DNA of 64,000 nucleotides from Linnemannia elongata (taxonomy: Eukaryota > Mortierellomycota > Mortierellomycetes > Mortierellales > Mortierellaceae), in contig JAXBDG010000016.1 in NCBI GenBank assembly GCA_036320915.1, positions 124,001 to 188,000 of the forward strand, in the 5' to 3' direction. The notes beneath the pieces are model-generated. The model was not told where the DNA came from, did no database searches, and saw only the letters and a program-made list of their open reading frames with translations. The position numbers and the translations under genes were made by a program. Of the stretch, positions 30,040-54,021 are shown in pieces; the stretch's first letter is position 1, and every line of letters begins with the position of its first letter.

Positions 30040-30249
30040 TTTTTTTTTCGTACATAATTTTACTTCTCTGACAAACAGAACAAAAGAGGCATTTGGAAAT
30101 AAAGGGCAATATAGACCAAACTCTTTAGTGCGCCATACGCCAGTCAAAGTCCGGTCCGGAACTTGGCTCTGCGCAACAATTATCGCTGCTCTTCGCAGCA
30201 AAAGCGGAAGAACATAAAACTAGATACGAATGAAGTGGATCCTTCACAA
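30040..30249 (-). mobile_element. 3'-end fragment of the same non-LTR family
   Basis: Reading minus, it begins near the end of ORF2 (TCATTCGTATCTAG) and continues through a 3' UTR ~85-90% like that at 28840-29028. It ends in a short poly(A) (T-run at 30040-30048). It sits directly after the poly(A) of the neighbouring copy. Confidence 0.75.
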
Positions 30250-30283
<34 letters not shown>

Positions 30284-30487
30284 TACACATTTTTATTTCT
30301 CTGAAAATCTCACCATTATTGAAAACTTCCTCCTTCCCAACAAACTCTCTCTAAAAGCAGCTCGTCAGCAGCTCGCGGGTCAACGGCCAGGTCATTTTAT
30401 TTCTAGAATTGCAGGATCAACGGCCATTTTTTTTTTTTTTTTTTTTTTTAACCGCCGGGCGCCAGGCGCGTTTTTACTTACGGGGCG
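30250..30487 (-). mobile_element. Heavily deleted non-LTR copy upstream of tRNA-Ser
   Basis: Minus orientation. 5' end CGCCCCGTAAGTA at 30487, A-run, ATGGCCGTTGATCC..., then a jump to ORF2 C-terminal codons (TTGTTGGGAAGGAGGAAG). It closes with an AGAAATAAAAATGTGTAC 3' end and poly(A) (T-run 30250-30282). The 5' end is 67 bp from tRNA-Ser. Confidence 0.75.
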
Positions 30488-30909
30488 TGTAATGCTACTC
30501 TGAATCCATACATTCAACGGTGACTGGGACGGACTGGTTTCATCATGAAATACTGTCAATATGGCCGAGCGGTTAAGGCGTGTGACTAGAAATCACATGG
30601 GTTCTCCCGCGCAGGTTCAAATCCTGCTGTTGACGCTATCCTTTTGCATTTCTTCACTTCGGTGGAGTTTTCTTTTATTCAGTCTCTCGAGGACGAGTGA
30701 ATGAGATGGGATGAAAAACGCGCTGGGACAAGGTCAGCGTAAGAGTGAGAGAGCGAAGTATCTTATTTCCAAGACACACATTCACATCTGGTGTTTCCTA
30801 TTTTTGTTTTTTGGTTGTCCTTCACACCTTTCGTCCTTCTTTTCTAGTTCAGAGAACATGCCATGATACTTTGCCATGCATGACAACTGAGAACTGCCAG
30901 GGTCATGAT
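30398..30909. repeat. Inverted duplication, right arm (contains tRNA-Ser)
   Basis: Inverted copy of 27301-27812. Identity stops at GGTCATGAT near 30909. Confidence 0.85.
30555..30635 (+). tRNA. tRNA-Ser (anticodon AGA), second copy
   Basis: Same sequence as the minus-strand tRNA at 27577-27657, including class II variable arm and B-box. Promoter boxes are intact, so both copies should be transcribed by Pol III. Confidence 0.95.
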
Positions 30910-31025
30910 ATTGCAATAGTGTAACGATTTTTGGAGTATGTTGTACTGCTTGAGTGTTTAATAAAGGAATGAGTTATGAGCTGATGAACCACCTAGGCGC
31001 TGAGTATGGATATTTTTATATACTT

Positions 31026-31394: not shown

Positions 31395-32213
31395 TTAATA
31401 GTCTATATCTCTACCAGCCGTTCGCATCTTAGACAGCGCAACACCTCCGTTGTATCCGATCGAGTTGTTATACAAGTTCAAAGTGGTTAAAGTCGAGTTA
31501 GTCTTGAGCGCTTCAGACAGCGCAACAGCGCCGTTGTCTCTAATCGAGTTTTTAATCAAGTACAAAGCGGTTAGAGTCGAGTTGGTCTTGAGTGCATCAG
31601 ACAGCGCAACAGCTCCGTTGTCTCCGATCGCGTTTCCAGCCAAGTACAAGGTTGTCAGAGTCGAATTGGCCTTGAGTGCATCAGACAGTGCCGCAGCTCC
31701 GTTGTCTCCGATTGAGTTGTATTGCATAGCCAAAGTGATTAGGGTCGAGTTGGTCTTGAGTGCCTCAGATAGCGAAGCAGCTCCGTTGCTTCCGATTGAG
31801 TTGTTATACAAACTCAAAGTGGTAAGAGTTGAGTTGGTCTTGAGTCCCTCTGATAACGCAACAGCTTCGTTGTATCCGATCGAGTTCTCATCCAGGATCA
31901 AAGTAGTCAGAACCGAGTTGGCCATAACGCTAGAAAGCACTTCTTCTCGTTCAGATGTTGACGATAGGTGTCCTTCATAGGGAGAGCTCTGAATCTTCAG
32001 GTCTTGTATAAGGTGCTTGTTCCTCTCGACTGATTCCATGCTGGGGCCATGTTTTGACAACACGACGGACTTGTAGAGTGGCGGTGTAAATGATTCGTTC
32101 CAATCCCGACTCACACGCGCACAGGATGCAAGGTCTTTAAGGCCAAGACGGCTGGCAATGATTGAGCGAATCTCATGTAGATCGAGGGGATGTGTCCGGA
32201 ACATCTTAATCAT
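31395..32213 (-). CDS. F-box / RNI-like leucine-rich-repeat protein (272 aa)
   Basis: Intronless ORF with ATG at 32213. Residues ~8-55 form an F-box-like segment (IIASRLGLKDLASCARVSRDW). From ~105 there are six near-regular 28-residue RNI repeats of the type N-S-T-L-T-T-L-x-L-x-x-N-S-I-G-x-N-G-A-x-A-L-S-E-A-L-K-T. The LRR array is highly self-similar, implying recent internal duplication. A TATA-like box lies ~111 bp upstream. F-box/LRR proteins usually supply substrate choice to SCF ubiquitin ligases. The C-terminus ends soon after the last repeat, so truncation is possible. Confidence 0.75.
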   Translation of the reverse strand: MIKMFRTHPLDLHEIRSIIASRLGLKDLASCARVSRDWNESFTPPLYKSVVLSKHGPSMESVERNKHLIQDLKIQSSPYEGHLSSTSEREEVLSSVMANSVLTTLILDENSIGYNEAVALSEGLKTNSTLTTLSLYNNSIGSNGAASLSEALKTNSTLITLAMQYNSIGDNGAAALSDALKANSTLTTLYLAGNAIGDNGAVALSDALKTNSTLTALYLIKNSIRDNGAVALSEALKTNSTLTTLNLYNNSIGYNGGVALSKMRTAGRDIDY

Positions 32214-32381: not shown

Positions 32382-33127
32382 ACGGCAGTGAGGGCGTAGT
32401 AAACATTCTAAAATACTGTGGCATTAATTCTATGCATCAGTTGCTCTCAAAATAAGCAATCATGAATGGTTCATGTAATTCGTACGATTTGGCATCTTTA
32501 ATAGGCCCTCCTTTCTTTCAGAGCGTCACGAAGAAAGCTACCACTCTTTGGTATACGGCAAACAAACGGAAGGGATGGGAGGAGTGTCAGAAGGGCAACA
32601 CAATGCGGGAGTACGATGCAACAGGGATACATGGCTTGTGGCAGCCAGGCGTTCATAGCGACGTTGCTTCTTGATCCTTCGATGTTGGCTCTTTCAATCC
32701 TTCTGTAGCAGAATTCAGTAAGCATTGGATTGTTCACCAAAAGACTACCCCTATGGACACCATCAAGGGACAACATCAAGGGATGATGGAAAAAGATCAA
32801 AGGCATTCAGTGTGGAAAGACAGGAAAAAATCAAGGGATGGATCAAGGCATAAAAATCAAGGGACAACACCAAGAGACAACATCAAACGACAACATAAGT
32901 TAGCTAAAGAAAAAGAAAAAACCTAGCTCATTTGTGGTAATGTGTGGAAGTGCGCTTGTTGCACTGATCAGGATATATGTTTTAGATTTTTAGAACTTGA
33001 TTTGATTACAGCTTGTGCGACAGAGGTATCTCTTCCAGGTCCAATTCACGAAGGGTCAAACCACTTTTTTTTTGTAGAGAGAGAGAGAGAGAGAGAAAGA
33101 GGAGAAGTGTGCTTGGTTAAAGTGCTA
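32382..33127. other. Intergenic region with degenerate short repeats
   Basis: Contains dispersed-repeat copy 2 and a CATCAAGGGA-type tandem motif at ~32760-32900. A GA-repeat lies at 33077-33105. No gene is supported. Confidence 0.45.
32648..32745 (+). repeat. Dispersed repeat, copy 2 of 3
   Basis: Similar to 31256-31350 and 34246-34340. The upstream ATGGCTTGTGGCAGCCAGGC resembles GGCTGACTTGTGGAAGGCAA at copy 3. Confidence 0.6.
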
Positions 33128-34490: not shown

Positions 34491-34499
34491 GACAAACAT
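34491..34499. other. Target-site duplication, left copy
   Basis: GACAAACAT immediately outside the left TIR; the identical 9-mer is at 51161-51169. Nine bases is the standard duplication length of Mutator-like elements. Confidence 0.85.
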
Positions 34500-35520
34500 C
34501 AAAAAAGAATTTCTTACAATACTCTGTAAATTAAATGCTTACAAGGGTGTAAGCATGAAAGTGTACTATGAGTAAAGATTCGATGAAAGGGGGTCTTTTA
34601 CATTAGTGTAAGACGCACTCAACGAGTGAATAAACACACATAGGTAAGCATTTCATAAAACGAAGGTCGAACAACCCAGTAAGGCTCTGGTTTTTTTGGA
34701 ATGTTTACAATGGTGTATCAATTAGCCCCAAATCCATTTTTTACATACTTGTAGGAACATACGGCATCGCCTTTTCTTACCCCATTGTAAACAAAACTCG
34801 ATTCTGCTTCCTTTACAACTGAGTAAGGATTACAGCAGAAAGGAGGCGGTTTTTATTTGCCGACAATTGGTCTAATCCTGGTTTGACCAGCGCTGCTGGA
34901 TGCCTTAAGTCATTTGACTAGGCGACGCCCTTATCTGTGAATTGTCCATTTTTTTTGTTTTTGCCTCATTGATTTGACAGAAGGCAACAAAAGGTGTTTG
35001 ACGCCTTGAGTGTCCATTTTGCTGGCGAATTTTTTTTTGTCTTCAGGATGCCGGCCATCTTGACCTGACTTTTACATCCTTGTTACACTCATTTTTACAC
35101 CCGTTCACACTTGAACCTGGCCAGAGTCGAAACACAAATTAGCCTCATCTTTCAGGCCATTACTGAACATGAACCGTCATTCGCTTTGTCTTCTTTTCAG
35201 ATCTCGTCTCTTCAATCTCTCTTTATATTCAAACACAAGGAAACAAGGCTAAATCAAGCTCCACCAAGCTCAGGATCCTACACAGTCCTTGTTTGCTCGT
35301 TTGTTTCTTTGTCAAATATGTCATACAGGACGAATAAAATAAGCAAAATATAGTTTATTCTTCGAGGTATCTTATGCCTTGCCGTCCGTGTAATTCTGCA
35401 CTCAAAGAGGAAGTGATTACAGGGAGAGGTGCCAAGGACCTGATTGTGCATCTAAAGGTAGAAGAGAATAAGAATTGGTGAGAGATGAAAGGTAGAAGGA
35501 GAGGCTAAAGGAGGGCAGAG

Positions 35521-35748
35521 GGAAGGTGAGGAGGAGTAGAGGGAGCAGCTAGAGGGGAGTAGAGGGGAGCATCTAGAGGGGAGTAGAGGGAAGCAGCAAG
35601 AGGGGGGTAGAGGGGAGCAGCTAGAGGGGAATAGAGGGGAGCAGCAAGAGGGGGGTAGAGGGGAGCAGCTAGAGGGGAATAGAGGGGAGCAGCTAGAGGG
35701 GAGTAGAGGGAAGCAGCTAGAGGGGGGTAGAGGGGGGTAGAGGGAAAG
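35521..35748 (+). repeat. Minisatellite in the left TIR
   Basis: Tandem ~24-bp units built from GAGGGGAGCAGCTAGAGGGG with (G/A)(T/A)AGAG variants, about nine copies. Mirror copy at ~49913-50140. Confidence 0.8.
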
Positions 35749-36074
35749 GGGGAAGGGTGTTAAGAAAAAAGAAAAGAGTGAAGGAGAAAGGGAGACAAGG
35801 GATAACGTGCGTGGAGGGAATGGGGGACGGATGGAGGGATAAAGAGGAAGAGGAGAGTTGAGTGTCATAAGGCGATATAATAATACGAAAGAGAAAAGGA
35901 AAATGGAACAGAAGGGAGGAAAAGTCCAATTCGGACTGTAAGCTCTTTTTAAAACGTTGTAAGAATTCTCAACAGCTGAGCTGTGTACAATGAGTCGTTT
36001 TTCTAATGACAGTCGTCCATTGCTCCCTCTCTCTCCTTCCTCTCCGCTCCCTGTATCTCTCATTTCGTAAACTT

Positions 36075-36092
36075 GCACCCGTGCACGGGTGC
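36075..36092. repeat. Perfect 18-bp palindrome in the left TIR
   Basis: GCACCCGTGCACGGGTGC is a perfect palindrome, conserved at 49569-49586 in the right arm. It could bind a dimeric protein such as the transposase. Confidence 0.7.
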
Positions 36093-36774
36093 TTCGAAAA
36101 GATAGAAAACAGAGAAAGGCAAGCGATACTAATCACCTGCATGCTCTTTTCTTACCCACACAATTATACATAAGAAAAACAGTTAAGCAAAAACAACAAC
36201 GATGAGGTAGCAGGAATGAGTGATTAAGTTAAGGAACAACCACCTCCACCATCAATCCAACAGAAAAACAAAAGATGGTGAGGGGCAGAACGAGAGGAAG
36301 CCAAGGAGGAACGATACAAGCTTTCAAGTAGACAACTTCCTCCTACTCGTGTTATAAAAAAAGAGAGAATTGGGCAAAAACATGTGCCTACGTCGCTTTC
36401 TTTTTTTTTTTTTTTTTTTTTTTTTGTTTTCTTCTTTTACAAAGTGGTCAAAGCATAACGGCGCGAATGGGCCTCCATAACCTTATACTTTTCTTAGGCC
36501 TGGATCTTGATAGAAACAACAAGGTGTACAACCAAGGACGAATATCCCCAAATAAAAAGCTAGCGTGGGGTGAGAGAGAGGGCGAAAGGCAAGCTCGTGA
36601 GAACTCAGAATACGAGCCTTGCAAAGACTGACCTGGGATCAAAGGGTGCATGATGTGACGTATGCCTCTCCCCCTGTTGCGGTACGGGGTTTTTATTCTA
36701 TTTTACCCCGTCTTTTTATTTAACGAAGTGCTGCTAGCGACCACATCACCACATGGCGGATGGTCGCTTCTCAA

Positions 36775-36876
36775 CTACCACCTCCGTGATTGTTTATAAC
36801 AATCATCATCTCCGTGATTATTTACCACCTCTGTGATTAACTATCACATCTGTGGTTAAATATCACTCCGGTGGTG
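36775..36876 (+). repeat. Short tandem motif array in the left TIR
   Basis: Five degenerate ~20-bp units of the form (C/A)CACCTCCGTGATTATTTA. The mirrored array is at ~48784-48886. Candidate transposase-binding sites. Confidence 0.6.
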
Positions 36877-37049
36877 TAAAACAATAAAACAACTCTTTTT
36901 TTCTCGTTAACTTAGACTGCATACTTTTCACCCCTTTCTTTTCCTTGACTCTGGTCCAGCAATTGCTTGGTCGATATAGGCGATACCAACCTCGCAATCA
37001 CGTGCATAACACGCTCGGCCTCGACCCTCCATGAAAAAGGAGATAGAAG

Positions 37050-37056
37050 TGTGTGC

Positions 37057-37132
<76 letters not shown>

Positions 37133-37146
37133 AAGAGAGAGAGAGG
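37050..37146 (+). repeat. GT/GA dinucleotide repeat in the left TIR
   Basis: (GT)n followed by (GA)n. The mirrored tract lies at ~48510-48607 and differs slightly in length between arms, the main visible difference between the TIRs. Confidence 0.85.
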
Positions 37147-37364
37147 GCGAGACAGAGAGAGGGCGAGACAGAGAGTACAAGAATGACTGAGGGACTCGAA
37201 AATGAAAAGAGTGTGAGAAGTATGGGTAGAATTAACGAGAAGAAAGAGTGCGTTTTCTTTATTTTGCACCACAGAGCAGTATCGGCTCGTGTGGCTTGAT
37301 CGGTTGAGCGTTTCTTCGTTAAAAAAACGGATAAATAAAAATAAACCCGTACCACAACAGCTGC

Positions 37365-37841
37365 ACATGTTTGCACGGGCCTTTCATTGATTTTCCTTCC
37401 TCTTTTTTTGACCACATCCTCTTCCCTTTATTCCCTCGCTTGCCTCTTTTTTTTTCTTGGATTCTGGCGAAGCGAATGCTTGACCGATATGAATAATACC
37501 CAATTAGTATAGCCATCTATTTACCCACAATCACTTACGTAACACGCTCGTTCGCGGCTCCGTGAAAAAGGAGATGGAGGTGTGTGCGTGTCTGCGTGTG
37601 TGTGTGAGAGAGAGGGCGAGGCAGAGAGGACAAGCATGACTGAGGGACTCGAAAGAGAAAGGGTGCACATGTTTGCACGGGCCTTTCATTGATTTTCCTT
37701 CCTCTTTCTTGACCACATCCTCTTCCCTTTATTCCCTTGCTTGCCACTTTTTTTATTTCTTTGATACTGGCGAAGCGACTGCCCGGCCGATATGAGTAAT
37801 ACCCAATTGATACTGCCATCTATTTACTCATAGTCACTTAC
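37365..37841 (+). repeat. Tandem ~300-bp sub-repeats at the inner TIR edge
   Basis: Two units share TGCACATGTTTGCACGGGCC and TTCATTGATTTTCC, a CTGGCGAAGCGA motif and an AATACCCAATT motif (starting ~37365 and ~37665). A third, more diverged unit is at ~36918-37070. The right arm has the mirror set plus one extra partial unit at ~47700-47816. Confidence 0.65.
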
Positions 37842-38077
37842 ATGATACGCCCGTCCGCGCCGAAGCCAACAGGACCACATCAGAAGAAGCAGAATCGCGT
37901 TTGTCCTTGCAATGCACACCCAACGAACCACAAAATAAATCTCGTACAACAACGACATCTATATCTCTTTTTCTTTTTATTTATTTGCATACTGTTCATA
38001 AGCAAACCAATTCCAACACTTCCATATCACAACAGCAGAAAAGTATTCTAGACACATTTCCACTCATAACTCCCTCG

Positions 38078-39187
38078 ATGCCTACCGTCCTCTGCCCACA
38101 CTTTGATCGAAGACTTTGCCGGATCCCTCCGGAGGAACAAACCGAGGAGCATAACAAGAGATACCATGAGAAGATTGCGGTTCTTGTTCAACGACCTGGA
38201 CTCCCCGATATCATGGTTGAACGCAGCGAGGAACACGATAATCATTATCCATGTCCGTCGACCCAATGCCAAGTAACCACCAATGTTCGTCAGAATGTGT
38301 TGAAGCATATTGCTGTCTGCCGTTTTGTACGCTCCGATGACACCGCTCGCTTCCGTTTACTCCGCCAACAACTAGGACGACAGCAGCGGGCGCGTCAGGC
38401 TCCCTACCCAGCGACAAGTGCCTCTTCAAGCGCAAGCTCAGGCCATCGAGCTCCCATGAGTCCATTTCTACAGCCCGACATCGACATGGACGGCTCCAAC
38501 GAGGAGCAAGTGCAAGGCATAGTTCGGTTCCAGAACACCGTTATGGCCCTTCTTGGGTACAGTCAGATGGGGTCTGAGCGGCTATATCAGATCGAGGACA
38601 GCATCGATAGTCTCAAGGCCGACCTTTCGACATCGTTTAAACAACTGATGGATAATAACAAGGACCTTTCCGCCAAGCAAAACAAGATCATTGAAAATAT
38701 TGTGAAACTGATGAACAAGACTGAGGGACTGCTTAACAGGATCGAGAGGTTCACATTTGAGAAGCCTGGGTGGCAGACAGGTAAACACTTGATCTCCTTA
38801 TGCATGTGGCTGTGCGTTTTCTCAAATTAACTTAACTCTTACGTTTTTTTTTTCTTAGATTCACAGGAAAGATTCACCATGCCAGGAAGTCCTGTCGATG
38901 GACACTTTAGGCTTGGTGTCGACCTGAGACGCTACATCCCGCATCTTGATGACCACGATCAAGTTATCTCAGAGTCCGAGTCCCCAGAGTATGAAAATAG
39001 CTTGGAAAGAAACATGGCGCAGGCTCAAGTTACTGCACACCACAATGAGGAATTCTCGCGTGGGATGGCTGGAGAAGAGAATAAAATGAAGATAGCGAAG
39101 AAGGACTCACAGGACATGGAGGATGCAGCTGAGGAGATGGGAGAAGTGCATAAGGATGAGGATGTGAAGGAGGAGGCGGAGGAGTGA
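38078..39187 (+). CDS. MULE accessory gene A: zinc-motif, coiled-coil protein (343 aa)
   Basis: Exons 38078-38780 and 38859-39187 (donor GTAAAC, acceptor TTTCTTAG), in phase. The ATG at 38078 (MPTVLCPHF) is the first good one after the TIR. Residues ~60-90 hold a C-x4-C ... H-x3-C element (YPCPSTQCQ ... LKHIAVC). A Gln/Arg/Ala-rich linker follows, then a long coiled coil around ~165-230 (SLKADLSTSFKQLMDNN, KLMNKTEGLLNRIERF). The C-terminus is very acidic (KDEDVKEEAEE). It lies just inside the left TIR. Probably a DNA-binding or partner protein; the family is not recognised. Confidence 0.72.
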
Positions 39188-40106
39188 AAGGAGGTGCGCA
39201 AAGGAGAGAGTGTAAAGGAGGAGAAGGCTATATGCAAACAACAAGAGTCGTCCTGAACCCCACCATCATGCTCGTTATTTTTCTGATTACGTTTGACCAT
39301 AGTATACAATGTAAACCCCCCTTTCAAAGCCCTTGGCACCAACGCCTTTACACATTGCAGATGGTTCTCTTTCTCTGTGCCGTTGACCCGTTAGTACTCA
39401 CTCCCGACCTACGCCAACCACTCGGTCAAAATTACACTTACTGACACATAAACACAGTTGATCAACAGGCCTTACCCGTCTACAAGTGCGTGCTACGAGT
39501 CTAAGATAGTCAAAAGGGACACATGCCTACTTTTACTTGGGCCGGGGAGGGGGGGTGGGGGGTGGTGGAGAATACCACAAAGAAAAGATAGTGTCCCTCA
39601 CAGTACAAACGTAGCAAGCAATGTGCAACCCATCCCTTAACTACGATCGGCAACGGTGTCTTATTTTATTCATAATCACACAAAGCAGCACATATGAAAC
39701 CGTCGAAAGAAGAGTTTCCCTAACCATACTTTATCGGGTGGGCGCGCAGCTACGAGAGTAAAGGGCCTGCAAAGAAAGAGTCGTCTACAAACCAGTTACT
39801 TTTCGCCTAAATTCCCTTCCCTTCTTCATTTCTTTCCTTCTCCCGCTGCCAAAACACGACCGTAGGCACATCCTTTACCCATCTGTTAACACCCGCAGCA
39901 CGATACACATCCATGATTTGCTCCCTTCTTTTACCATCTTACAACCTCAATTTAGACCACGTCAAAGACTTTGTATTTGAATAAAAAAAAAATCAAATAA
40001 TATCATATGTCTTTAATTGAGTATTCTTCAGGCTTCATTCTCTTGTTTCATATTTTACCATTTTTTCGCCTCCTCCTCAACCCTTTCTCTCCCTTCACAT
40101 GCACCA
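39188..40106. other. Spacer between convergent MULE genes
   Basis: Contains the 3' regions of accessory gene A and the transposase gene. A G-run (GGGGAGGGGGGGTGGGG, ~39543-39560) is G-quadruplex-like. No gene is supported. Confidence 0.5.
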
Positions 40107-43100
40107 TTACTGGCCAGGGGCATCCATACTCCCGCTTCTCTGCCTTCTTGAACCTCGCCCCTCGCCGGACTTTGACTTTGGCCCTCTCTGCATCTTCTTT
40201 GGCAAGTCTACCTCCTCAACATCACCGCCGTCGCTGCCATCATCGTCTCCCGTTCTTGTTCGTTTGACAGCAACGCGAACACCATTTCCATTGGCTGCTG
40301 TAGATTTGGCCGCCTTGGTCGCTTTGGTCGCCTTGATTGCTTTGGTTGCCTTGATCGCATTGGTCGCCTTGGTCGCTTTGGTCGCTTGGATTGCTGCACC
40401 AGTGGTAATAGTCTTGCTTGCTTTCTTGATGGCCTTGGACTTCCAACCGTGCGGAAGGCTGACTCCACGTGGACGACCTTCTCCTTTCAGGTCATTTTCG
40501 GTTCCATCGACTATACTGTCTAGATCCAATCCCTTGCTCAAATCTGCGCCCACTGTTCCAGGCACTTGTGACTGTTGAACTAGAAGGCGAGCACCCTCTT
40601 CAAGGGCTTGCATCGTCTCCGCGATCCCGTCCAGCTTACTGGTGTTTTTGACGAGACTTTTGGCGGAGATAAGGATCCTGTTCCCTGGGGCTTTGGGTTG
40701 TGTTGAATGACGAGCAACAGGTGGAGGTCGAAGGATAGAGTTAGAGTCGTCCATAAAGGTATCGATGGATAGATCCGTGCCGACCGGGTCTTTGCTGGCA
40801 CCCTCGTTGACTGTTACCGTCTGTGCGCGGAGGAAAGGTTTGTCGGAGAGTTGTTGCTTGAGGTTCGGATCAAATTGTTTCCCCTCTTTGTACCAGCGTG
40901 GCAGAATCATGCAAGGGTGAAAAAGGAATCGTGCATCCTCCATCATCAAACAAAAGAAATGCCTACAAACAATGCCCTTATTCTGTTGCAATGCGCAGGT
41001 ACAGAAGTAAGTGCGGTTTGTTCGTAAGATCACATACTCTGGGCGCGTGCTTTTTCCTGTGTCAGCCATAGAAGAGACACGGAAAACCCCTTCCGATGTG
41101 TGCCTGGGGATGGACGCGAGCAAAGCATGAACCGAGCCACGCTGAAGTTGTTCGGCGCGGGATAGTTTTGACTGGAGGGAATGAATGGAATAAACCGGCG
41201 ATTAGTGCATTTTCCTTTGTGTTACATAAACCAAGGAAAAAAATGCTCGTAAAAGGAATGAAAAAGTAGCAAAGAGGTTAAAAATAAGGCAAAGGATCAT
41301 TAAAAAACTCACCAAGCAAAAATCACCATCCTGGACATAAGGAACCGCTCCGAAATTAACGACTGTGAACTTGAGGCCAAAGGAATAATCCATCTCGGTT
41401 CGCAGCTGACCTTGAGCCCACTGGCTGAGGAATACCTTGCTGGCATCGAGGACTTGACCAAAGATATCGTAGGTCGTATCGCTGACGCCTAAGCGTCTCA
41501 TCGGTTTGGCGTCATTCGGATCATTCGACAAAATGGTGAAGAGATCGATTTCATCTTCAATCTTGTTCATGATCGCTTTGAACAGATCCGATAGGGAAGT
41601 CTTGCTGTTGTGCAGAAACATCTTGAGCACATCGTGGTTCTTTTCAACGCGCTGCGTGGAGCGCATCCCTGCGGTGAAAGAGGCTTGCACCCATGGTCCT
41701 GCCCAGAAATGACGACGGTTGTAAAGCCTTGCAAGATGTACTCCAACTTCGCCAGATTCGAGAGTATCACGCTCCTGTACGGACAAGATGGGGTCAGCAG
41801 CGATGTGGGAAGTGGCGACATTTACTGGAGTGGAAAGGTTGGGTGGAGTGGAGAGGCTGGGTAGAGTGTTGAGGTTGTTGTTGCTGTCGTTTTCGTCGAC
41901 GATGGTAGTGGCGATGGTGGTGGTATCGATGCTAGGAGTAATAGTAGAGGTGATAGAGATGCCAAAGCCGTCTCCTCCAAAGTTTTGAAGGATGCGTGCC
42001 CAGATGCGTTCAAACTCGCCGGCTGTTAAGGCACAACAGGCGGTTTTGAACATACTGAAAAATTGACTGTATCTGTCATTCAATCTACAAGACAAATGCT
42101 TCCTCAGATTTTCCTGGATATGCCATATGCAGTTAATCACATGGACACCCTGAAACACCAAAGGAAGCGTTCTATCCATTGCCGCATCTTGATCAACCAT
42201 CATAACCTTGGGCAGTAGTCCTTCGGTTGCGTCTTGAAGCTTGGAGAGAACCCATTTGTAGTCCTCTTTTGTCTCATGACGAGATAGAGCGGTCGCAACG
42301 AGTCGTGTCTTGAATTCGCAATCGACGACCACAAAGTTGTGCAGCGGGAGGCCAAGGCGATTGGTGCGGTAAGTATTGTCATGCACTAGCACATCACCAT
42401 AGCGACGGAAAAGATCCCTCTGTCCTGGGGTCATCCAAAAGACCCGGACAAGCTGGTTCTTGTCATCAACATCGGTGGCAATATACCATCCCTTCTCCTG
42501 ATTTGCTCTCATACATAAGGCGATTAGGAGCTGGACCGTCTGAGGGATCTGGATGGCATGGAGTAAAGTCCTAAACTCCTTAAGACGGTTGAGGACCTTT
42601 TTTTTTTTTTTGTGTGTAGAGAAAAAATGTGTATGAGAAAATTGATTTGAGTCGAAATGTAAAGTTGTCACTCAAACCGTAACTGTCCACAACAATACCT
42701 GATATTTGCAGAACTTTGCATCCCGAAATTCGATACGCAAAATGTCCAGTGTTTGCTTGTAGGACAGTCGAATCTGGGCACATTTCCCAATAGAAGCGAT
42801 CATAGGGGCCGTCAAGGGGTTGGTTCGGCCAAGATTAAAATCGAACTGGTGCTCACAGTGATCGAGGTTGAAGGAGGTGATGTGGTAATCAGGAGCGATG
42901 GACAGAGGGGAAGATATGCTGATCGCGAATGGGCAACCACAACGTGGACTCTCACGCTTGTTGTGCTGTCGATCCTCGTCAGCAACTTTCTTGGATGTAT
43001 AGAACCCAAAGAAGCTGCAAACGTACTTGACTATTTAGTGGTGAGGAAAGAGGATAAGGAGGTAGAAAAATGAAAAAGACGATAAGGTTCGCGATTTCGA

Positions 43101-45654
43101 TTTCTTGCTCAACTCTATCTCACACTTGATATAACATGTACAAACCAATATTGCTTACCGGCATTGACAGTCGAGGTGCGAATTATAAGCTTGTGCCCCT
43201 TTTTGAGTGCCCAAGACCTCAAAAATACGTCCGCAGCCGACCTTGATCCAAGACAATAGTGAAAGGTGGGCACCCAGCCCACCAGCAGTTCACTAGCAAC
43301 ATCGCCAACCTTGACCGGAACATGAACCGACCCATCCTCTTCATATCTGCACTCGTCCTCGTCGATCTCATCCATGCTCTCATCCTCCCTCATACGCTCC
43401 CGAGCGGAAAATACAGGTGTTGAGGATGTGTTGTAAAGAACGGCACTGACAGCTGCTGCGTGATTGTAAGACGAAGTGATGTTTTTGTTTTGATTACTGG
43501 AAAGAGTGGTTGATGAGGCGTTGTTATTGAACGACGAATATAACTCTTCTTCCGTCTCAACGTCATACAGCTCGTCCTGGTCCTGGCCCTCGGCCTCGTC
43601 ATCGTCTTCGTCATCGTCCTTGAACGTTTCCTGTTCATCCGAGTCAGCAAAAGCATTGTCCGACCAATGTTCACCCTAATAAAAAAGAATGATAGAGGAG
43701 AAAGTGGTAGAGGCATTGAATACACAAATGCAATAGGGCAGGATGCCAAAATGTAATGAAAGCACCGTCTTGATTTTATGTTACCTCCTTTTCGAGGTTG
43801 TTATGAGAGAACATGCTCTCGAATTTGTCGCCAAGTTCCTTAGCCTAAAAAAACCATGAAAAAAAAGTTAGCAAAATGGGCCACGTCACTTCATACTCTT
43901 CTGGGTTATTGTTTTGAGCGACATTAAGGTACCTTTTGCTGCAAAGGGCTGGGAAGCGTAGTCAGCGGTGTTTTAGGGGGGGCGATGAAAGAGTCTAACG
44001 ACTTATCACTGTTCTTTGAGCTGCTAGAGGTCGGGGAGAGATTCTACGTTGAGAAGCACGTTACATTTTTCAGAAATAAAAATAAAAAAGAGTGAGCCCA
44101 GGTGTTTTTTTTCTTGGTTTCTTGATTATTATCTTTTTTGTCGCGATTTTTTTTTTTCATTACCTTGAACTGAGGAACTGGTTGTTGCTCTGTGCCCGGA
44201 GAGGCCTCAAAGGAAGCAGATGAGGGTTCGGCTTTGTTCTTGCTACAAATGGGAGTCTCGGCAAACGCGGCTTCCATAGCCGTCTTTTCCATTTTGAGTT
44301 GGCCATCCTTTGTATCAAGAGAAATCCTAGGCTACAAAAAATTCAAGGTCTATTAAACAAGAGTACACAAGCATTTTGATTTCGTTTACAACTACAAAAG
44401 GCACAGGCTAAATTCTCATTTGTGTACCTTGTCAAAGCCCATCAATCGAGCCAAATACTTGGCACGGTGTTTAACGTTATCTTTTTCAGTCCAGATGGTT
44501 ATAGACTCCTGACCTGTGATATCGTTCTCAATCATATGTGCGGCAATTACGCCACACGAGCTGCCGTCCGACTGCCGAGGTTGGTGTAAGCGTTGAATAT
44601 TCGTTCTAGTCCATTTTTTTGACTTAAGGCTGGATATCCCCAAACTAACCCAGGCCTTGAGGACATGGACGGCGGTGGAGTATCCGTTGTCCGAATAACG
44701 CATTCCGTCTCCAACATAAACTGCGCACGAAACCATATCCAACTTGATCACTCCCCAGTGGCGGCCTAGGTAGACTATGGAATAGACGGCGTCATAGCTT
44801 CCGTTTCTAAGACCATCGACATTCCAGTTGTGAAAGGTTTTGTTGCCTAAGTTAGGGTGCTCCCGCATCCAATCAGACAGCCTACAAGGCGAAATAAACA
44901 GGTTGGTGTTGCTGTTGTACAATCCGTATCGGACCTCAAAATCGCACATGATTGCATCCAGAATGGTTGAGGTCATCCACTCTTGGCCGGCGAGAGGGAG
45001 AAGGGAAGCGAGGGAAACCGACTCCGGACCAAGAGAAAACAGCGCGTCATCAATGCGAATAATCTTCGTCTGTTGCTGGTACCACTCAAAAAATGATGGG
45101 TTCAACGCAGCAACAGAGTTCCTCATCCAACGGCGCGCTCGGTGAAGATGCTCAATAAGGCAGCCAGACTGGACAACCTCCTTCAAGAAGACAAAGTCTA
45201 TTTCTTCGGAGACGCGGAAGGGGACAAAGGTCGATCCAATGTTAATCCAGAGGCCGAGGTTGTTGTTGTTGTCCTTGAACTTGTTATAGGTCGCGGTATA
45301 GGACTGGAGATTGGGAATGGTCCTCAAAGCTGCAAGGCTCTCTTGGTTAAGGACTGTTGCCGGCAAAGTAGTGCAATGCGGTAGCTCACCCGTGTTACGG
45401 GTCGAGGAAAACTGAGGGAAATCGTTCACTTCTAGGAGCTGGGCACAAGGAACACGGTTTCGCCAGATCTTTCCATAAATCCAAGCCGCATCAGACTGCA
45501 ACCGCGGCAAGGCGTCAACGTCGATTGGGGTCGAAGCGGTGTTGATAATCGAGGGCATGCTTTTGGTAATGAAAGATGCAAGGGTAGGGATATCAGACGA
45601 TTGCCATGTACAATTAGTTTCAAACGTGAAGTACCAAAAACTGCAGAGAATCAT
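40107..45654 (-). CDS. Ulp1 protease-FAR1-MULE transposase-SWIM fusion (1,587 aa, 8 exons)
   Basis: Exons (minus): 45654-44428, 44331-44164, 44043-43933, 43844-43785, 43675-43159, 43030-42699, 42596-41313, 41171-40107; every junction keeps phase. Residues ~280-380 are a C48/Ulp1-like cysteine protease with H299 (GRHWGVI), D316 (VYVGDG), Q361 (HQPRQSDG) and C367 (SSCGVIAA). Exons 2-5 encode a Ser/Asp/Glu-rich linker. Residues ~655-760 are a FAR1-type domain (YVCSFFGFYTSKK, PRCGCPFAI, DHCEHQF). Residues ~840-1010 form the MULE core: D878 (VHDNTYRTN), D940 (VMMVDQDAAM), C961-x2-H964, and an E in AGEFERIW. A SWIM finger follows (C1290-x-C-x9-C-x-H1304), then a tail with KAT repeats and basic clusters. 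The transposase should cut and paste the element; the protease may remove SUMO-like tags. Confidence 0.86.
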
Positions 45655-46518
45655 TACATGAATGGTGGGAGTGGTAGCACTAATGGTAGGATTAGCAGTG
45701 GTGTTGGTATAGTGGTGGTGTTGTTATGGTTGTAAGAATTTACAAATTGAGGAATTTTACTTATGAATCATTGTTTTTATAGTCTACCCAATGATATCCA
45801 AAATTTGGCGTTTTAGAGGCAAGCGGGCTTACACCTCTATTATTCTTCACAGATTGCAATGTGAGAAACACCATTGTCGTGCTAAGGTTGTATTCATTTG
45901 AGGTAGGTATAATAGCAACTCGCACTTGATTCATTTTTTTAAAATAAGCAAACAAACATAATCCTTCATTGACTAGGCGAAGCTCCTTTTTACGGCAAGG
46001 GTGACTCCGAATATGACCCTTGTCCTAAGTAACTCTAGGCCTGAAAAAGTCAATCTGGCTTTAGTTTATCCAAAAAAATCTTCGGAAGGATTGTGCGCTT
46101 GGGCATTTAGTAAAATCTTGATCAGTAATTAGCAATCGATTTTTCCACGAGCGTTGACTTACCATGCAGTTGCATTTTTTTAAATAGCTTGCATTGTACC
46201 GGTATAGGAACAAAAAGGCCAATACCCAGGAACCAACAGGATGTACCTCTTACTTACCAGAATTGGATTGAATATGAGGGTTTGATTACCTAAGTACATC
46301 GACCATTACACTTGCGCTAACGCAAGCACTTTAAGCAATAGGAACAGTAAAAACCCAGAAAGTGTTGTTTAAGGATATACTTAACACTTGACAAGACGAA
46401 GAATAACGCTGCCCTGAATGTCTATGCTTTCAGGACTGTATAAAGAGACCAATGTTCATTCCATGTAGATACCATCAACTTTTTTTTCTTCTGGTCCTTC
46501 ACTTTTTAAACAAAAAAT
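45655..46518. promoter_or_regulatory. Divergent promoter region of MULE genes
   Basis: The AT-rich 0.86-kb spacer serves the transposase gene (minus) and accessory gene C (plus). A minus-strand TATAAAAA (45775-45782) lies ~120 bp before the transposase ATG, and a plus-strand TATAAAG (46439-46445) ~75 bp before the ATG of gene C. Confidence 0.5.
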
Positions 46519-47331
46519 ATGGACAACATCCTCCCCACCTGCACATACTACCACTGCGCTATGAAGTGGCCAGCGCGACCTCATTCTCCTCTCATCATTG
46601 AAAAAAAAATGCTTCATTTTCACGACTATCACACCCCCTACTCACTGTCTCTCAAAAACAACCACCCCACCGCGCAATCTCCACGTACTGAGATATTTGT
46701 CCGCAAGGCTAGCAAATCAATGGAGTTTGTTTGCTATTGTGGTGCCTCCAGCCCAGGTCGATCAGTCCTTCAGCTTCATCGCTCGTCTTGTGTAATGCCA
46801 GCCCCTGATATGACTATCCTCTCGCTCTTGCCTGCGGAGGTCGTTGAATTAGACGCGTTTTTGGACGAAGGACTGGTCGACACCAAGCCAAAAGCACACC
46901 CCTCTGATCACTTTGGTCTGTCGCTGGGGGATGTTGATATTGGTAGCCTACGTCGATGCGATGAAACATCCCCCCTGTCTCCTGGATACATGGACGATAC
47001 TTCCGAGGAGTTGTCCGGAGACGACACCGATGTTACTTTGCCTCCAATTCAATCACCAAGCCTATCGTTCGAAAAGCCTTTTCAGCTTGCGGGTCAAGAA
47101 CTCGACCATCCCTTCTTCACCTTTTACGACATGCGTGGATCGAATACCAATGAGGTTCGCAATTCCTCTCCAAGATTCGTCAAGAGGCGCCGATCGGAAA
47201 GAACAAACAATAGAAAACGTCGTATCCCTCAAGGAACCCGCTCGAAGAACAGTAGACCTTGTTTTATGGATCCCACCAGTTACATTGCAAGGCAAGACTT
47301 GTTGAATGTGAAGAGACCAAAACATCAGTGA
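46519..47331 (+). CDS. MULE accessory gene C: Cys/His-motif, basic C-terminus (270 aa)
   Basis: Single exon, ATG at 46519; a second Met at codon 15 is possible. Residues ~70-95 hold a compact C-Y-C-G ... H-R-S-S-C motif (CYCGASSPGRSVLQLHRSSC) that could bind one zinc. The middle is acidic and Ser/Pro-rich. A bipartite-like nuclear signal follows (FVKRRRSERTNNRKRRI) and the end is again basic (NVKRPKHQ). It lies just inside the right TIR. It resembles gene A in layout (zinc-like motif near the N-terminus), but no direct sequence identity is evident. Likely a nuclear, DNA-contacting accessory factor. Confidence 0.7.
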   Translation: MDNILPTCTYYHCAMKWPARPHSPLIIEKKMLHFHDYHTPYSLSLKNNHPTAQSPRTEIFVRKASKSMEFVCYCGASSPGRSVLQLHRSSCVMPAPDMTILSLLPAEVVELDAFLDEGLVDTKPKAHPSDHFGLSLGDVDIGSLRRCDETSPLSPGYMDDTSEELSGDDTDVTLPPIQSPSLSFEKPFQLAGQELDHPFFTFYDMRGSNTNEVRNSSPRFVKRRRSERTNNRKRRIPQGTRSKNSRPCFMDPTSYIARQDLLNVKRPKHQ

Positions 47332-47816
47332 AATGAGCAAGTTTGCATGAATAAACTGCAGGTGTTTTTTATTTGTACTACATCACTATCAATTATGAAA
47401 ACAATAGGGGAGGTATGTGCATGAGCAAAAGTGTCTTTTGTCGGTGTCAATCTACTAGATGAATCGACGGTGTTGTAAAATTGCAGCTGCCTTAAACGCC
47501 ATATGCTTGCGCCGCATGTAGGTTTGAATTCTGATAGGGCTCAAAGAATGTGAAGGATGCAGAGTCAGAATAAAGAATATGTCCGATAGAAAATGGAATA
47601 GAATGAGAAAAATGGCCACGGCTATTTTTTAAAACAGAAGGTAGAATCAATGGGAAATACATGTAAATATGCACACGATATCGTGTTCCAAGTCTATGTC
47701 ACATTCCTCCTCTTTGTCTCGCCCTTTGTCTCGCCTCTGTCTCGCCTTCTCACACACATACACGCGCACACACTTCCATCTCCTTTTTCACGGAGAGCCG
47801 CGCTCGAGCATGTCAC
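47332..47816. other. Spacer between gene C and the right TIR
   Basis: 3' flank of gene C, plus a partial extra copy of the TIR sub-repeat (CACTTCCATCTCCTTTTTCACGG and following, ~47700-47816). Confidence 0.5.
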
Positions 47817-48525
47817 GTAAGTGACTATGAGTAAATAGATGGCAGTATCAATTGGGTATTACTCATATCGGCCGGGCAGTCGCTTCGCCAGTATCAAAGA
47901 AATAAAAAAAGTGGCAAGCAAGGGAATAAAGGGAAGAGGATGTGGTCAAGAAAGAGGAAGGAAAATCAATGAAAGGCCCGTGCAAACATGTGCACCCTTT
48001 CTCTTTCGAGTCCCTCAGTCATGCTTGTCCTCTCTGCCTCGCCCTCTCTCTCACACACACACGCAGACACGCACACACCTCCATCTCCTTTTTCACGGAG
48101 CCGCGAACGAGCGTGTTACGTAAGTGATTGTGGGTAAATAGATGGCTATACTAATTGGGTATTATTCATATCGGTCAAGCATTCGCTTCGCCAGAATCCA
48201 AGAAAAAAAAAGAGGCAAGCGAGGGAATAAAGGGAAGAGGATGTGGTCAAAAAAAGAGGAAGGAAAATCAATGAAAGGCCCGTGCAAACATGTGCAGCTG
48301 TTGTGGTACGGGTTTATTTTTATTTATCCGTTTTTTTAACGAAGAAACGCTCAACCGATCAAGCCACACGAGCCGATACTGCTCTGTGGTGCAAAATAAA
48401 GAAAACGCACTCTTTCTTCTCGTTAATTCTACCCATACTTCTCACACTCTTTTCATTTTCGAGTCCCTCAGTCATTCTTGTACTCTCTGTCTCGCCCTCT
48501 CTCTGTCTCGCCCTCTCTCTCTCTT

Positions 48526-48603
<78 letters not shown>

Positions 48604-51160
48604 GCACACACTTCTATCTCCTTTTTCATGGAGGGTCGAGGCCGAGCGTGTTATGCACGTGATTGCGAGGTTGGTATCGCCTATATCGACCAAGCAATTG
48701 CTGGACCAGAGTCAAGGAAAAGAAAGGGGTGAAAAGTATGCAGTCTAAGTTAACGAGAAAAAAAGAGTTGTTTTATTGTTTTACACCACCGGAGTGATAT
48801 TTAACCACAGATGTGATAGTTAATCACAGAGGTGGTAAATAATCACGGAGATGATGATTGTTATAAACAATCACGGAGGTGGTAGTTGAGAAGCGACCAT
48901 CCGCCATGTGGTGATGTGGTCGCTAGCAGCACTTCGTTAAATAAAAAGACGGGGTAAAATAGAATAAAAACCCCGTACCGCAACAGGGGGAGAGGCATAC
49001 GTCACATCATGCACCCTTTGATCCCAGGTCAGTCTTTGCAAGGCTCGTATTCTGAGTTCTCACGAGCTTGCCTTTCGCCCTCTCTCTCACCCCACGCTAG
49101 CTTTTTATTTGGGGATATTCGTCCTTGGTTGTACACCTTGTTGTTTCTATCAAGATCCAGGCCTAAGAAAAGTATAAGGTTATGGAGGCCCATTCGCGCC
49201 GTTATGCTTTGACCACTTTGTAAAAGAAGAAAACAAAAAAAAAAAAAAAAAAAAAAAAAAGAAAGCGACGTAGGCACATGTTTTTGCCCAATTCTCTCTT
49301 TTTTTATAACACGAGTAGGAGGAAGTTGTCTACTTGAAAGCTTGTATCGTTCCTCCTTGGCTTCCTCTCGTTCTGCCCCTCACCATCTTTTGTTTTTCTG
49401 TTGGATTGATGGTGGAGGTGGTTGTTCCTTAACTTAATCACTCATTCCTGCTACCTCATCGTTGTTGTTTTTGCTTAACTGTTTTTCTTATGTATAATTG
49501 TGTGGGTAAGAAAAGAGCATGCAGGTGATTAGTATCGCTTGCCTTTCTCTGTTTTCTATCTTTTCGAAGCACCCGTGCACGGGTGCAAGTTTACGAAATG
49601 AGAGATACAGGGAGCGGAGAGGAAGGAGAGAGAGGGAGCAATGGACGACTGTCATTAGAAAAACGACTCATTGTACACAGCTCAGCTGTTGAGAATTCTT
49701 ACAACGTTTTAAAAAGAGCTTACAGTCCGAATTGGACTTTTCCTCCCTTCTGTTCCATTTTCCTTTTCTCTTTCGTATTATTATATCGCCTTATGACACT
49801 CAACTCTCCTCTTCCTCTTTATCCCTCCATCCGTCCCCCATTCCCTCCACGCACGTTATCCCTTGTCTCCCTTTCTCCTTCACTCTTTTCTTTTTTCTTA
49901 ACACCCTTCCCCCTTTCCCTCTACCCCCCTCTACCCCCCTCTAGCTGCTTCCCTCTACTCCCCTCTAGCTGCTCCCCTCTATTCCCCTCTAGCTGCTCCC
50001 CTCTACCCCCCTCTTGCTGCTCCCCTCTATTCCCCTCTAGCTGCTCCCCTCTACCCCCCTCTTGCTGCTTCCCTCTACTCCCCTCTAGATGCTCCCCTCT
50101 ACTCCCCTCTAGCTGCTCCCTCTACTCCTCCTCACCTTCCCTCTGCCCTCCTTTAGCCTCTCCTTCTACCTTTCATCTCTCACCAATTCTTATTCTCTTC
50201 TACCTTTAGATGCACAATCAGGTCCTTGGCACCTCTCCCTGTAATCACTTCCTCTTTGAGTGCAGAATTACACGGACGGCAAGGCATAAGATACCTCGAA
50301 GAATAAACTATATTTTGCTTATTTTATTCGTCCTGTATGACATATTTGACAAAGAAACAAACGAGCAAACAAGGACTGTGTAGGATCCTGAGCTTGGTGG
50401 AGCTTGATTTAGCCTTGTTTCCTTGTGTTTGAATATAAAGAGAGATTGAAGAGACGAGATCTGAAAAGAAGACAAAGCGAATGACGGTTCATGTTCAGTA
50501 ATGGCCTGAAAGATGAGGCTAATTTGTGTTTCGACTCTGGCCAGGTTCAAGTGTGAACGGGTGTAAAAATGAGTGTAACAAGGATGTAAAAGTCAGGTCA
50601 AGATGGCCGGCATCCTGAAGACAAAAAAAAATTCGCCAGCAAAATGGACACTCAAGGCGTCAAACACCTTTTGTTGCCTTCTGTCAAATCAATGAGGCAA
50701 AAACAAAAAAAATGGACAATTCACAGATAAGGGCGTCGCCTAGTCAAATGACTTAAGGCATCCAGCAGCGCTGGTCAAACCAGGATTAGACCAATTGTCG
50801 GCAAATAAAAACCGCCTCCTTTCTGCTGTAATCCTTACTCAGTTGTAAAGGAAGCAGAATCGAGTTTTGTTTACAATGGGGTAAGAAAAGGCGATGCCGT
50901 ATGTTCCTACAAGTATGTAAAAAATGGATTTGGGGCTAATTGATACACCATTGTAAACATTCCAAAAAAACCAGAGCCTTACTGGGTTGTTCGACCTTCG
51001 TTTTATGAAATGCTTACCTATGTGTGTTTATTCACTCGTTGAGTGCGTCTTACACTAATGTAAAAGACCCCCTTTCATCGAATCTTTACTCATAGTACAC
51101 TTTCATGCTTACACCCTTGTAAGCATTTAATTTACAAGGGTTGTAAGCATTTCCGCGTTG
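47817..51160 (-). repeat. Right terminal inverted repeat of the giant MULE
   Basis: Inverted copy of 34500-37841, about 3,344 bp. It carries the mirrored GA/GT repeat (~48510-48607), short motif array (~48784-48886), poly(A) (~49234-49260), 18-bp palindrome (49569-49586) and minisatellite (~49913-50140). Reading frames inside it are mirror copies of those in the left arm and none looks like a gene. Confidence 0.9.
49569..49586. repeat. Perfect 18-bp palindrome in the right TIR
   Basis: Same GCACCCGTGCACGGGTGC as at 36075-36092. Confidence 0.7.
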
Positions 51161-51169
51161 GACAAACAT
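51161..51169. other. Target-site duplication, right copy
   Basis: GACAAACAT directly after the right TIR terminus (...CGCGTTG), identical to 34491-34499. Confidence 0.85.
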
Positions 51170-52881: not shown

Positions 52882-54021
52882 ATGCCAGTAACAACCAACC
52901 CTAGCGATGTACCCTTTGCGGCCGTCAACATTCGAAACGCCACACCTGAAGCCGCCGAATATTACACCAAGAATCCGTTCGCCATCGTCGAAGGAGACAA
53001 AGCGCTTCAAAACAAGAAAGGCAAGGTTTTGCGATGCTCCTTTCCTTTTCCCTCCAAGGAGTCTTCCGATCAGGACCTGATCTTATCCGCGAGACACAAC
53101 AACGGCTTTGTCAACACGGCTCTGAAGGCGTACAACGAACATCACCATCTTGTCCTCCGTCCCGACGATGTCTGGATAGCGATCCTTTCTCAGTTCAACT
53201 TCTTTGTCAATGCAAACGCAGAGAAGTTGCGCCACCTTCTCGTCGCACATGAGGGTCAGAAAGAGTTGTCAATCGAGACGTCCGGTGCACTACATTCGTG
53301 GGATTTTGGGGACCTGGCGGTGCAGATGGGAGAGTTGATCCAAGAAAATGTTCTCGACCCGGAACTCCGTAAGTGGATTATGCCAGACTTCACCACCACC
53401 ACGACAGACGACAAAATCATCTCGAGCGTAATCATGATGTCGACTCTCAAGAAGTATTTCAAGTACCGTATGTTCACATGCTGTGGTCTACCAGCTGTGA
53501 CTCTACTTGGAGAGAAAAGTGACTGGGAGAAGCTTCTTGTTAGGGTTGAGAAGCTCAAAGGGTATGGCGAGGAGACTACGCAATGGTGCAATCTACTCAA
53601 GGAGGTGCTCACCCGCTTTGTGGAGACTTTCAACAATCCTGATTCTGAAGAAACCAAAGACTTTTGGGGGAGAATCGCGCACATTCGGGGTGGTAGTGGT
53701 CCGTCCTATCTCTCTGGTTGGATCACGGCGTTCTGCTTCTTCAGTTCTGAAGGAGTGTGTCTTTACAGGAAGAACGGCGGGCTGACCCTGGGTGATGTTG
53801 CTTTCCATCGTGTCGAGACTGGCGATATTCCCACAGGATACGCCGATGTACCAGTCTTACTCGACGACAATGGCAGAAAGACCAAGGCAGTCATGGTAGC
53901 TGGTCTAGTTGGGACCAGGGTCACTGGAAACCAGGATACGATTCAGCCTCAACCTGCATGGTGGATATCGGAGGATGCATCAGATGACGATGGGTCAACC
54001 AGGACCAATATCACAGCTTGA
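52882..54021 (+). CDS. DUF4419 family protein (379 aa), intronless
   Basis: A complete single-exon ORF behind a TATA box. Family features are clear: LILSARHNNGFVNTALKAYNEHHHLVLRPDDVWIAILSQF near residues 66-107 (a conserved R-P-D-D-V-W-x-x-I), an H-x-W-D-F segment, GLPAVTLLGEKSDWEKL, and GPSYLSGWITAFCFF near ~285. The SGWI-x-x-F motif is the family's C-terminal core. DUF4419 proteins are abundant in fungi and have no established reaction. The lack of introns contrasts with most genes here and fits an expanded, possibly retroposed family. Confidence 0.85.
   Translation: MPVTTNPSDVPFAAVNIRNATPEAAEYYTKNPFAIVEGDKALQNKKGKVLRCSFPFPSKESSDQDLILSARHNNGFVNTALKAYNEHHHLVLRPDDVWIAILSQFNFFVNANAEKLRHLLVAHEGQKELSIETSGALHSWDFGDLAVQMGELIQENVLDPELRKWIMPDFTTTTTDDKIISSVIMMSTLKKYFKYRMFTCCGLPAVTLLGEKSDWEKLLVRVEKLKGYGEETTQWCNLLKEVLTRFVETFNNPDSEETKDFWGRIAHIRGGSGPSYLSGWITAFCFFSSEGVCLYRKNGGLTLGDVAFHRVETGDIPTGYADVPVLLDDNGRKTKAVMVAGLVGTRVTGNQDTIQPQPAWWISEDASDDDGSTRTNITA

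Follow-up and report, generated by a model that had tools for sequence, protein, structure and literature searches.

We analyzed a stretch of 64,000 nucleotides from the genome of the fungus Linnemannia elongata (the window; contig C8:124001-188000 of a 51.1-Mb genome in 32 contigs), in which an element of 16,661 bp occupies positions 34500-51160. The element has two inverted arms of 3.3 kb, enclosing a transposase gene of the Mutator-like element (MULE) superfamily and several other open reading frames (ORFs). Judging from sequence comparisons within the genome, it is very probably an autonomous Mutator-like DNA transposon of the fold-back type, 16.7 kb long, that has been active recently in its Mortierellaceae host. 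A preliminary description of the window had proposed a complete MULE with exceptionally long terminal inverted repeats (TIRs), a perfect 9-bp target-site duplication and an exceptional number of genes. The features of the element are as follows (aa, amino acids; L and R, left and right).

34491-34499, no strand: left target-site duplication GACAAACAT, exact match to 51161-51169
34500-34524, plus: L tip, side-specific outer 25 bp, CAAAAAAGAATTTCTTACAATACTC, the same in five copies with duplications
34500-37845, plus: left inverted arm of 3.3 kb (99.73% identity with the right arm); contains a 24-bp minisatellite (35528-35735), GT/GA repeats (37049-37175) and two diverged repeats of ~200-245 bp (37362-37602 and 37664-37859)
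34535-34556, plus: sub-terminal hairpin ATGCTTACA-loop-TGTAAGCAT, from the DNA fold of 34500-34570
37901-38830, plus: ORF1, 309 aa, from ORF lists, possibly continuing into 38831-39187
40107-41201, minus: transposase C-terminal region, ORF of 364 aa with the SWIM-like motif CTCALQQNKGIVCRHFF
41202-42671, minus: transposase core with DDE MULE domain, open frame of 489 aa (PF10551, E-value 6.6e-20)
42672-43034, minus: FAR1-like DNA-binding region (PF03101, E-value 0.0012, below the curated cut-off)
43115-43675, minus: likely N-terminal region of the transposase, 186 aa, assigned as the open frame upstream on the same strand
44416-45723, minus: putative Ulp1-type (C48) cysteine protease, open frame of 435 aa, upstream of the transposase on the same strand
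46510-47331, plus: ORF4, open frame of 273 aa with a small zinc-finger-like motif seen by eye (CYCG...H...C)
47813-51160, minus: right arm of the 3.3-kb inverted repeat, with the mirrored minisatellite at 49926-50133
51105-51150, minus: R-side terminal hairpin, an almost perfect palindrome, from the DNA fold of 51090-51160, minus strand
51136-51160, minus: R tip, CAACGCGGAAATGCTTACAACCCTT, the 25 outermost bp, side-specific in the five duplication-bearing copies
51161-51169, no strand: right target-site duplication GACAAACAT, exact match to 34491-34499

Boundaries and copies of the element

The 9-bp duplication immediately flanks both ends of the element; at any single specified position, an exact 9-mer match would arise by chance with a probability of ~4 to the power of -9. 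Aligned with BLAST, the arms (34507-37845 vs 47813-51153, inverted) show 99.73% identity; the alignment spans 3342 bp and contains 5 mismatches and 3 gap openings. At the two ends, 14 of the outer 20 bp match. All of this agrees with the preliminary description, as does the transposase between the arms.

A probe of 261 bp from the element end was found at no fewer than 24 places in the genome, and 12 pairs or single places besides the window were retrieved for comparison of the ends. Exact duplications at both ends, each with a different sequence of 9-10 bp, were found in 5 of the 11 two-ended copies:

C8 (the window): 16,661 bp, duplication GACAAACAT
C2a: 16,700 bp, duplication ATTCACTCCC
C2b: 16,692 bp, duplication CCCTTCTCT
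C13a: 16,773 bp, duplication CTCTTGATCA
C4a: 20,674 bp, duplication CTCAAACAA
C1, C13b, C17, C18 and C20: ~23.1 kb each, no duplication
C4b: relic with two recognizable ends, no duplication
C10 and C4c: a single end only

Thus, four copies outside the window end at the same two termini, each with its own exact 9-10-bp duplication, which is what the preliminary description had expected of a genuine element. Across ~9960 interior sites, the four 16.7-kb copies show only 11-27 differences from one another, indicative of recent activity, and near-identical copies at different sites lend indirect support to mobility. Derivatives consisting mostly of arms are present as well, i.e., C4a and the relic C4b. 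In C4a, an L arm of 2676 bp and an R arm of 1670 bp, bounded by the duplication of this copy, surround a long insertion of Helitron-like type, in which frames of 819 and 784 aa encode Rep and PIF1 helicase; because its ORFs match Helitron_like_N (2e-58) and PIF1 (7e-62), the notion that the interior of C4a is captured host DNA was rejected. The arm pieces of the relics C4b and C4c are ~86-97% identical to the window, and their first 20 bases are unchanged (the R tip in C4b, the L tip in C4c).

Probable exchange between arms and its limit at the tips

The ten arms of the five copies with duplications were aligned, leaving out the 23-kb copies and the relics. A column was considered informative if the minor allele was present in at least two rows; there are 32 such columns. 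This rule omits one-row variants and so favors shared variants. All nine informative columns at positions 4-25, i.e., within the outer 25 bp, separate L from R in every element. Conversely, none of the 22 informative columns at positions 26-3401 is side-specific: 14 are private to one element and are found in both its arms (6 in the window copy, 8 in C4a), and the remaining columns group the C2 and C13a arms in mixed ways. At the inner edge of the arm, column 3402 is side-specific in the four copies that reach that far. Pairwise comparison of the two arms gives 10 substitutions in all in the window copy, and likewise in C13a, with 9 in the tips and one outside. Because no column at positions 26-3401 is side-specific and element-private variants are present in both arms, arm-to-arm exchange is strongly supported for the arm bodies, with an outer limit ~25 bp from the end. 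The arms had been described as mirror images; this holds for the arm bodies but not for the outermost ~25 bp, where the difference between sides is fixed in the five copies with duplications.

The sharp border between arm and tip can be read as marking the point at which exchange between the arms ends; a prediction that follows from it is that neither end can substitute for the other. The ends also differ in folding. The R-end hairpin (51090-51160, minus strand) has a folding energy of -15.9 kcal/mol and a z-score of -5.4; for the L-end hairpin (34500-34570), the outer half of which is degenerate relative to the R end, the z-score is -3.5. In both cases none of 200 shuffled sequences folded as well.

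Alternatively, the arms could be made afresh, i.e., one arm could be copied into the other at or after each transposition, instead of being homogenized by rare gene conversion. Element-private variants that are identical in both arms and a copied stretch that ends near the tips are compatible with such remaking. However, the L/R differences at columns 589, 1037 and 1311 are identical in C2a and C2b, each of which has its own insertion site and duplication, and therefore at least one move took place without remaking of the arms. We consider this explanation unlikely.

Genes, related families and contig-end copies

The transposase gene is spread over open frames between 43675 and 40107 on the minus strand. 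In an alignment of 16 sequences (the window and 15 of the 59 database matches), D98, D160, E343 and the CxxH residues C181 and H184 are invariant; at the sequence level, the DDE set of the transposase is intact. The core open frame has 489 aa in the window vs 542-543 aa in the other three 16.7-kb copies, and any effect of this shortening would depend on the position of the exon border. The motif CTCALQQNKGIVCRHFF, recognized by eye in the C-terminal region, is presumably SWIM-like. Neither the 364-aa C-terminal ORF nor the 186-aa N-terminal frame had a relevant Pfam match (none at all for the former), and a direct PDB search with the transposase gave no match. The closest database match is P0001; the sole named match of high identity is P0011 from Linnemannia hyalina (96% over 22% of the query).

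For the protease, the Pfam C48 match is weak in the window ORF (E-value 0.087) and in a relative of 89% identity, P0060 (0.0011), both below the curated cut-off; it is above the cut-off in the relative from a third MULE family of this genome (6.7e-6), and the relative from a second family had no Pfam match. Residues H322, D339, Q384 and C390 are invariant in an alignment of four sequences; H-D-Q-C is the tetrad that characterizes Ulp1-type proteases. When solved structures were searched with a profile of the protease, no match was found, and the fold predicted from a two-sequence alignment (pLDDT, predicted local distance difference test, of 30) was not used.

A genome search with the transposase identified the second family at 11 loci (40% identity) and the third family at two loci (42%), in addition to short fragments; the protease search returned the same 11 loci (24%, 6.5e-10) and the same two loci (27%, 1.9e-6). 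Over 134 aa, the transposase C-terminal region shares 38% identity with its counterpart in the second family. In that family the order is ORF4 (minus), protease (plus), transposase (plus), which is the arrangement of the window read on the opposite strand, and in the third family the protease lies beside the transposase in the same order and on the same strand at both loci. ORF4 and its counterpart in the second family share 34% identity over 86 aa (E-value 1e-8 in a single comparison), and a genome search with ORF4 found the 11 loci of that family (34% over ~88 aa, 1.1e-4), a relic at C14:894032 and a fragment of 82% identity at C1:3916457; ORF4 was not found at the two loci of the third family in this search, and it had no Pfam match. 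In the second family (an example locus is C12:715.9-723.3 kb, with 10 more), ORF4 and the protease are separated by an array of ~100-bp repeats, which is variable. The elements of this family terminate in GGGTTAATC... and have imperfect inverted repeats of ~50 bp (inverted matches of 50-58 bp at 86-88%). Among the four copies read by eye at both ends, three have exact 9-bp duplications, TCCCACAAA on C27, GGAAGCAAA on C7 and TGGCCAAAA on C32; the copy on C12 has only 7 bp.

Because the protease, and in the second family also ORF4, occurs in the same order in other MULE families, these are likely to be family genes rather than captured cargo, and since the protease is conserved next to transposases that have diverged into three families, it is likely to serve the element in some way. 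The gene set is shared with the second family, the ends of which are ~50 bp, so the giant arms are not shared by this family. The exceptional gene number noted in the preliminary description is thus not a matter of random cargo. The genome offers a natural series of families with transposase and protease (with ORF4 in two of them), one having ends of ~50 bp and one having 3.3-kb arms; this makes arm-length variation among MULEs, listed as an open question in a survey (PMC6446971), directly testable.

The idea of a Pack-MULE-like carrier, in which the extra genes are host genes acquired by chance, has to be weighed mainly for ORF1. All eight database matches of ORF1 are from Linnemannia or Mortierella. 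The frame is present in 9 of 9 long genome copies (in two pieces in C1 and C13b), and has relatives elsewhere in the genome, at C2:2266144 and C12:3919319 with one stop each, and without stops at three places on C31 and one on C8. No counterpart was found at the loci of the second family, so that capture is possible for ORF1 alone. Against chance acquisition stand the relatives of the protease and ORF4, whose order and strands next to the transposases of other MULE families are the same as here, and a DNA search with the 42.7-45.7 kb stretch, which among the matches listed found only the nine long copies of the element. Overall, the carrier explanation is quite unlikely.

The five 23-kb copies lie at contig ends and hold two additional insertions. 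A 5.2-kb piece, which matches parts of the 16-kb C4a insertion, was seen by eye to end like a Helitron on its 3' side (...CTAG before T); a 1.17-kb piece with TA-CAGT...ACTG-TA ends and TA duplications splits the transposase gene. Given the nature of these pieces, we rejected the interpretation of the 23-kb copies as a longer form rich in cargo. The outer flanks of C1, C17, C18 and C20 equal the inner flank of C18 exactly over the 584-650 bases compared, that of C13b is 99.2% identical to it, and C1, C17, C18 and C20 all stop at an identical base, which lies 14,384 bp from the element. Only the first ~2.2 kb of the 14.4-kb tail matches the C18 inner flank, so that a repeat of this flank over the entire tail was rejected. 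These ~2.2 kb are also found without the element at C2:1020239 on and C28:7978 on; hence, the flank itself is a repeat, and its unoccupied form exists. Along C19:2009-128073, the shared contig-end repeat was counted at least 15 times, and C22 holds several more occurrences. A 1-kb probe matched at nearly 100% identity along the same C19 stretch, mostly at ~7.4-kb spacing and otherwise at ~11.5-11.8 kb, as well as on C22, C21, C18 and beyond the 23-kb element copies at contig ends. A repeat of ~6.1 kb with 457-bp inverted ends, probably another DNA transposon, was observed at C2:1016385-1022485 and C28:4126-10224, and the contig-end element copies sit inside one. Because the outer flank is common to them, we read the contig-end copies as probable products of assembly or segmental duplication and regard them as unreliable for end structure. 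In the C1 copy, CAAGGTAACG precedes an initial R tip, whereas the C20 copy starts with an L tip that has CAAGGTAACG as its opposite-strand flank; the two are best read as one insertion, the sixth, split by an assembly break. As a practical warning, the element seems to break the present assembly at several contig ends.

It should be noted that several observations speak against an element bounded by one L and one R tip and a target duplication. L tips are seen at both ends of C17, C18 and C20, and none of the five contig-end copies has a target duplication. C10 is just 970 bp of an L arm, and an intact L tip with the predicted duplication was searched for in the relic C4b and not found. If the L/L tips of C17, C18 and C20 are real, the rule of one L and one R falls; the L/L copies as real end-switch products were set aside, given the shared exact outer flanks and the four contigs ending at the same base. 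That the arms come from a mis-assembled or duplicated genomic palindrome is highly improbable: the contig-end copies, with shared outer flanks and no target duplications, do indicate that the assembly stumbles on the element, but the same termini recur in five copies whose flanks are unrelated, each bounded by a different exact repeat of 9-10 bp, and element-private variants are present in both arms, so the artefact that would have undone the preliminary description is not borne out.

In the surroundings of the element, a 520-bp inverted repeat of 99% identity (27297-27815 and 30399-30916) contains one transfer RNA gene per arm (27577-27657, minus; 30555-30635, plus). It encloses a second inverted pair (28812-29015 and 30045-30248), with a related copy at 10982-11184. 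An F-box and leucine-rich-repeat protein built from 84-bp tandem repeats is encoded at 31395-32213. A fragment of large-subunit ribosomal RNA (32634-32776; Rfam RF02543, 61.5 bits, model positions 2833-2984) is the only ribosomal RNA match within the window. To the right, 1.7 kb from the element, lies a DUF4419 gene (52882-54021; PF14388, 2.2e-115).

Class membership and comparison with known systems

The element has a DDE transposase, TIRs of 3.3 kb at 99.7% identity, and target duplications that, at 9 or 10 bp exact in five of the 11 two-ended copies, are within the 8-11 bp of MULEs. Its very long arms are internally repeated (24-bp minisatellite, dinucleotide runs, ~200-245-bp repeats), as in fold-back elements, and palindromic termini, a criterion of the fold-back class, are found at both ends, more strongly at the R end. 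The C48-type frame with invariant H-D-Q-C connects it to the MULEs that carry ULP genes, with the reservation that the window Pfam match is weak. Pack-MULEs consist of captured host gene fragments without a transposase; here the transposase is present.

For a fold-back-type MULE of this structure, the transposase would recognize one L tip and one R tip and cut there, followed by insertion into a staggered target of 9-10 bp, which is standard for the superfamily. The empty site would accordingly read ...TCTCATAGC, a single GACAAACAT, ATTTACGCAC. The Ulp1-like protease and ORF4 may be helper genes inherited with the MULE lineage, and the 3.3-kb arms may be an expansion special to the family of the window. 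Gene conversion or crossing-over through the mirror repeat could keep the arms identical inside each element, while the outermost 25 bp would be kept unlike by selection, or by exchange that never reaches a terminus. A more far-reaching version is speculative, and we give it a small chance: the arms would have a working role in the life cycle of the element, each being actively copied into the other in a self-correcting hairpin that leaves only the tips uncorrected, transposition would need one L and one R tip, and a fungal MULE lineage would have possessed the protease and ORF4 as a helper module since ancient times.

We conclude that this is an extreme MULE but one that is ordinary in principle, real and complete, and no new kind of system. 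Apparently new, as far as the literature covered extends, are the size of the arms, the border between tip and arm, and the conserved protease module in a fungal lineage. No fold-back MULE of Mortierella, Linnemannia or other fungi was found among the papers listed in literature searches, which is weak evidence of novelty. The nearest parallel to the element is probably FARE (Windsor and Waddell 2000), which reportedly has 9-bp duplications, imperfectly palindromic termini and large members of up to 16.7 kb with three proteins; unlike the 3.3-kb arms here, its arms are said to be typically ~550 bp, and its host is a plant.

In a published survey, MULE TIRs are given as 14-500 bp (PMC6446971), and the view of the preliminary description that TIRs of 3.3 kb are exceptional is well founded on this range. 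The MULE-Mucorales group resembles the window element in its Mucoromycota host, SWIM finger and 10-bp duplication, but differs in 40-bp TIRs and a single ORF (PMC6446971). The combination of MULE transposase and Ulp1-type protease is shared with KI-MULEs and other ULP-carrying MULEs; however, KI-MULEs have no TIRs and carry the protease in reverse orientation to mudrA, and in grapevine ULP MULEs the protease is downstream of the transposase ORF, whereas in the window element it is upstream on the same strand, between 3.3-kb arms (PMC2528002).

Long arms with internal tandem repeats are also found in the Drosophila fold-back elements Galileo and Tetris (PMC2775673, PMC4079207). Their arms are shorter than those of the window, at up to 1.2 kb in Galileo (PMC2775673) and 1,735 bp in Tetris (PMC4079207). 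Galileo has a P-type transposase (PMC3169594), and Tetris has no apparent coding capacity; for two of the three complete Tetris copies, the repeats cluster by element, a pattern interpreted as possible homogenization (PMC4079207). FARE of Arabidopsis is listed as a fold-back element with a MULE transposase (PMC3169594). Tm1 of root-knot nematodes has, like the window element, a MULE transposase, 9-bp duplications, composite repeated TIRs and deletion derivatives, and its asymmetric 7-bp motifs A1 and A2, outside the inverted repeat, recall the unlike tips described here (PMC3169594). One Tm1 element with A2 at both ends and no duplication was read by its authors as a possible crossover product, and they cite the proposal that fold-back families arise through TIR expansion (PMC3169594). 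Tm1 differs in its transposase of Phantom/FLYWCH type and in polymerase chain reaction products of ~0.9 and 2.3 kb, and the accessible text mentions no protease gene (PMC3169594). The best structural description of the window element is a fold-back-type MULE with asymmetric tips, a kind already described in Tm1 and FARE.

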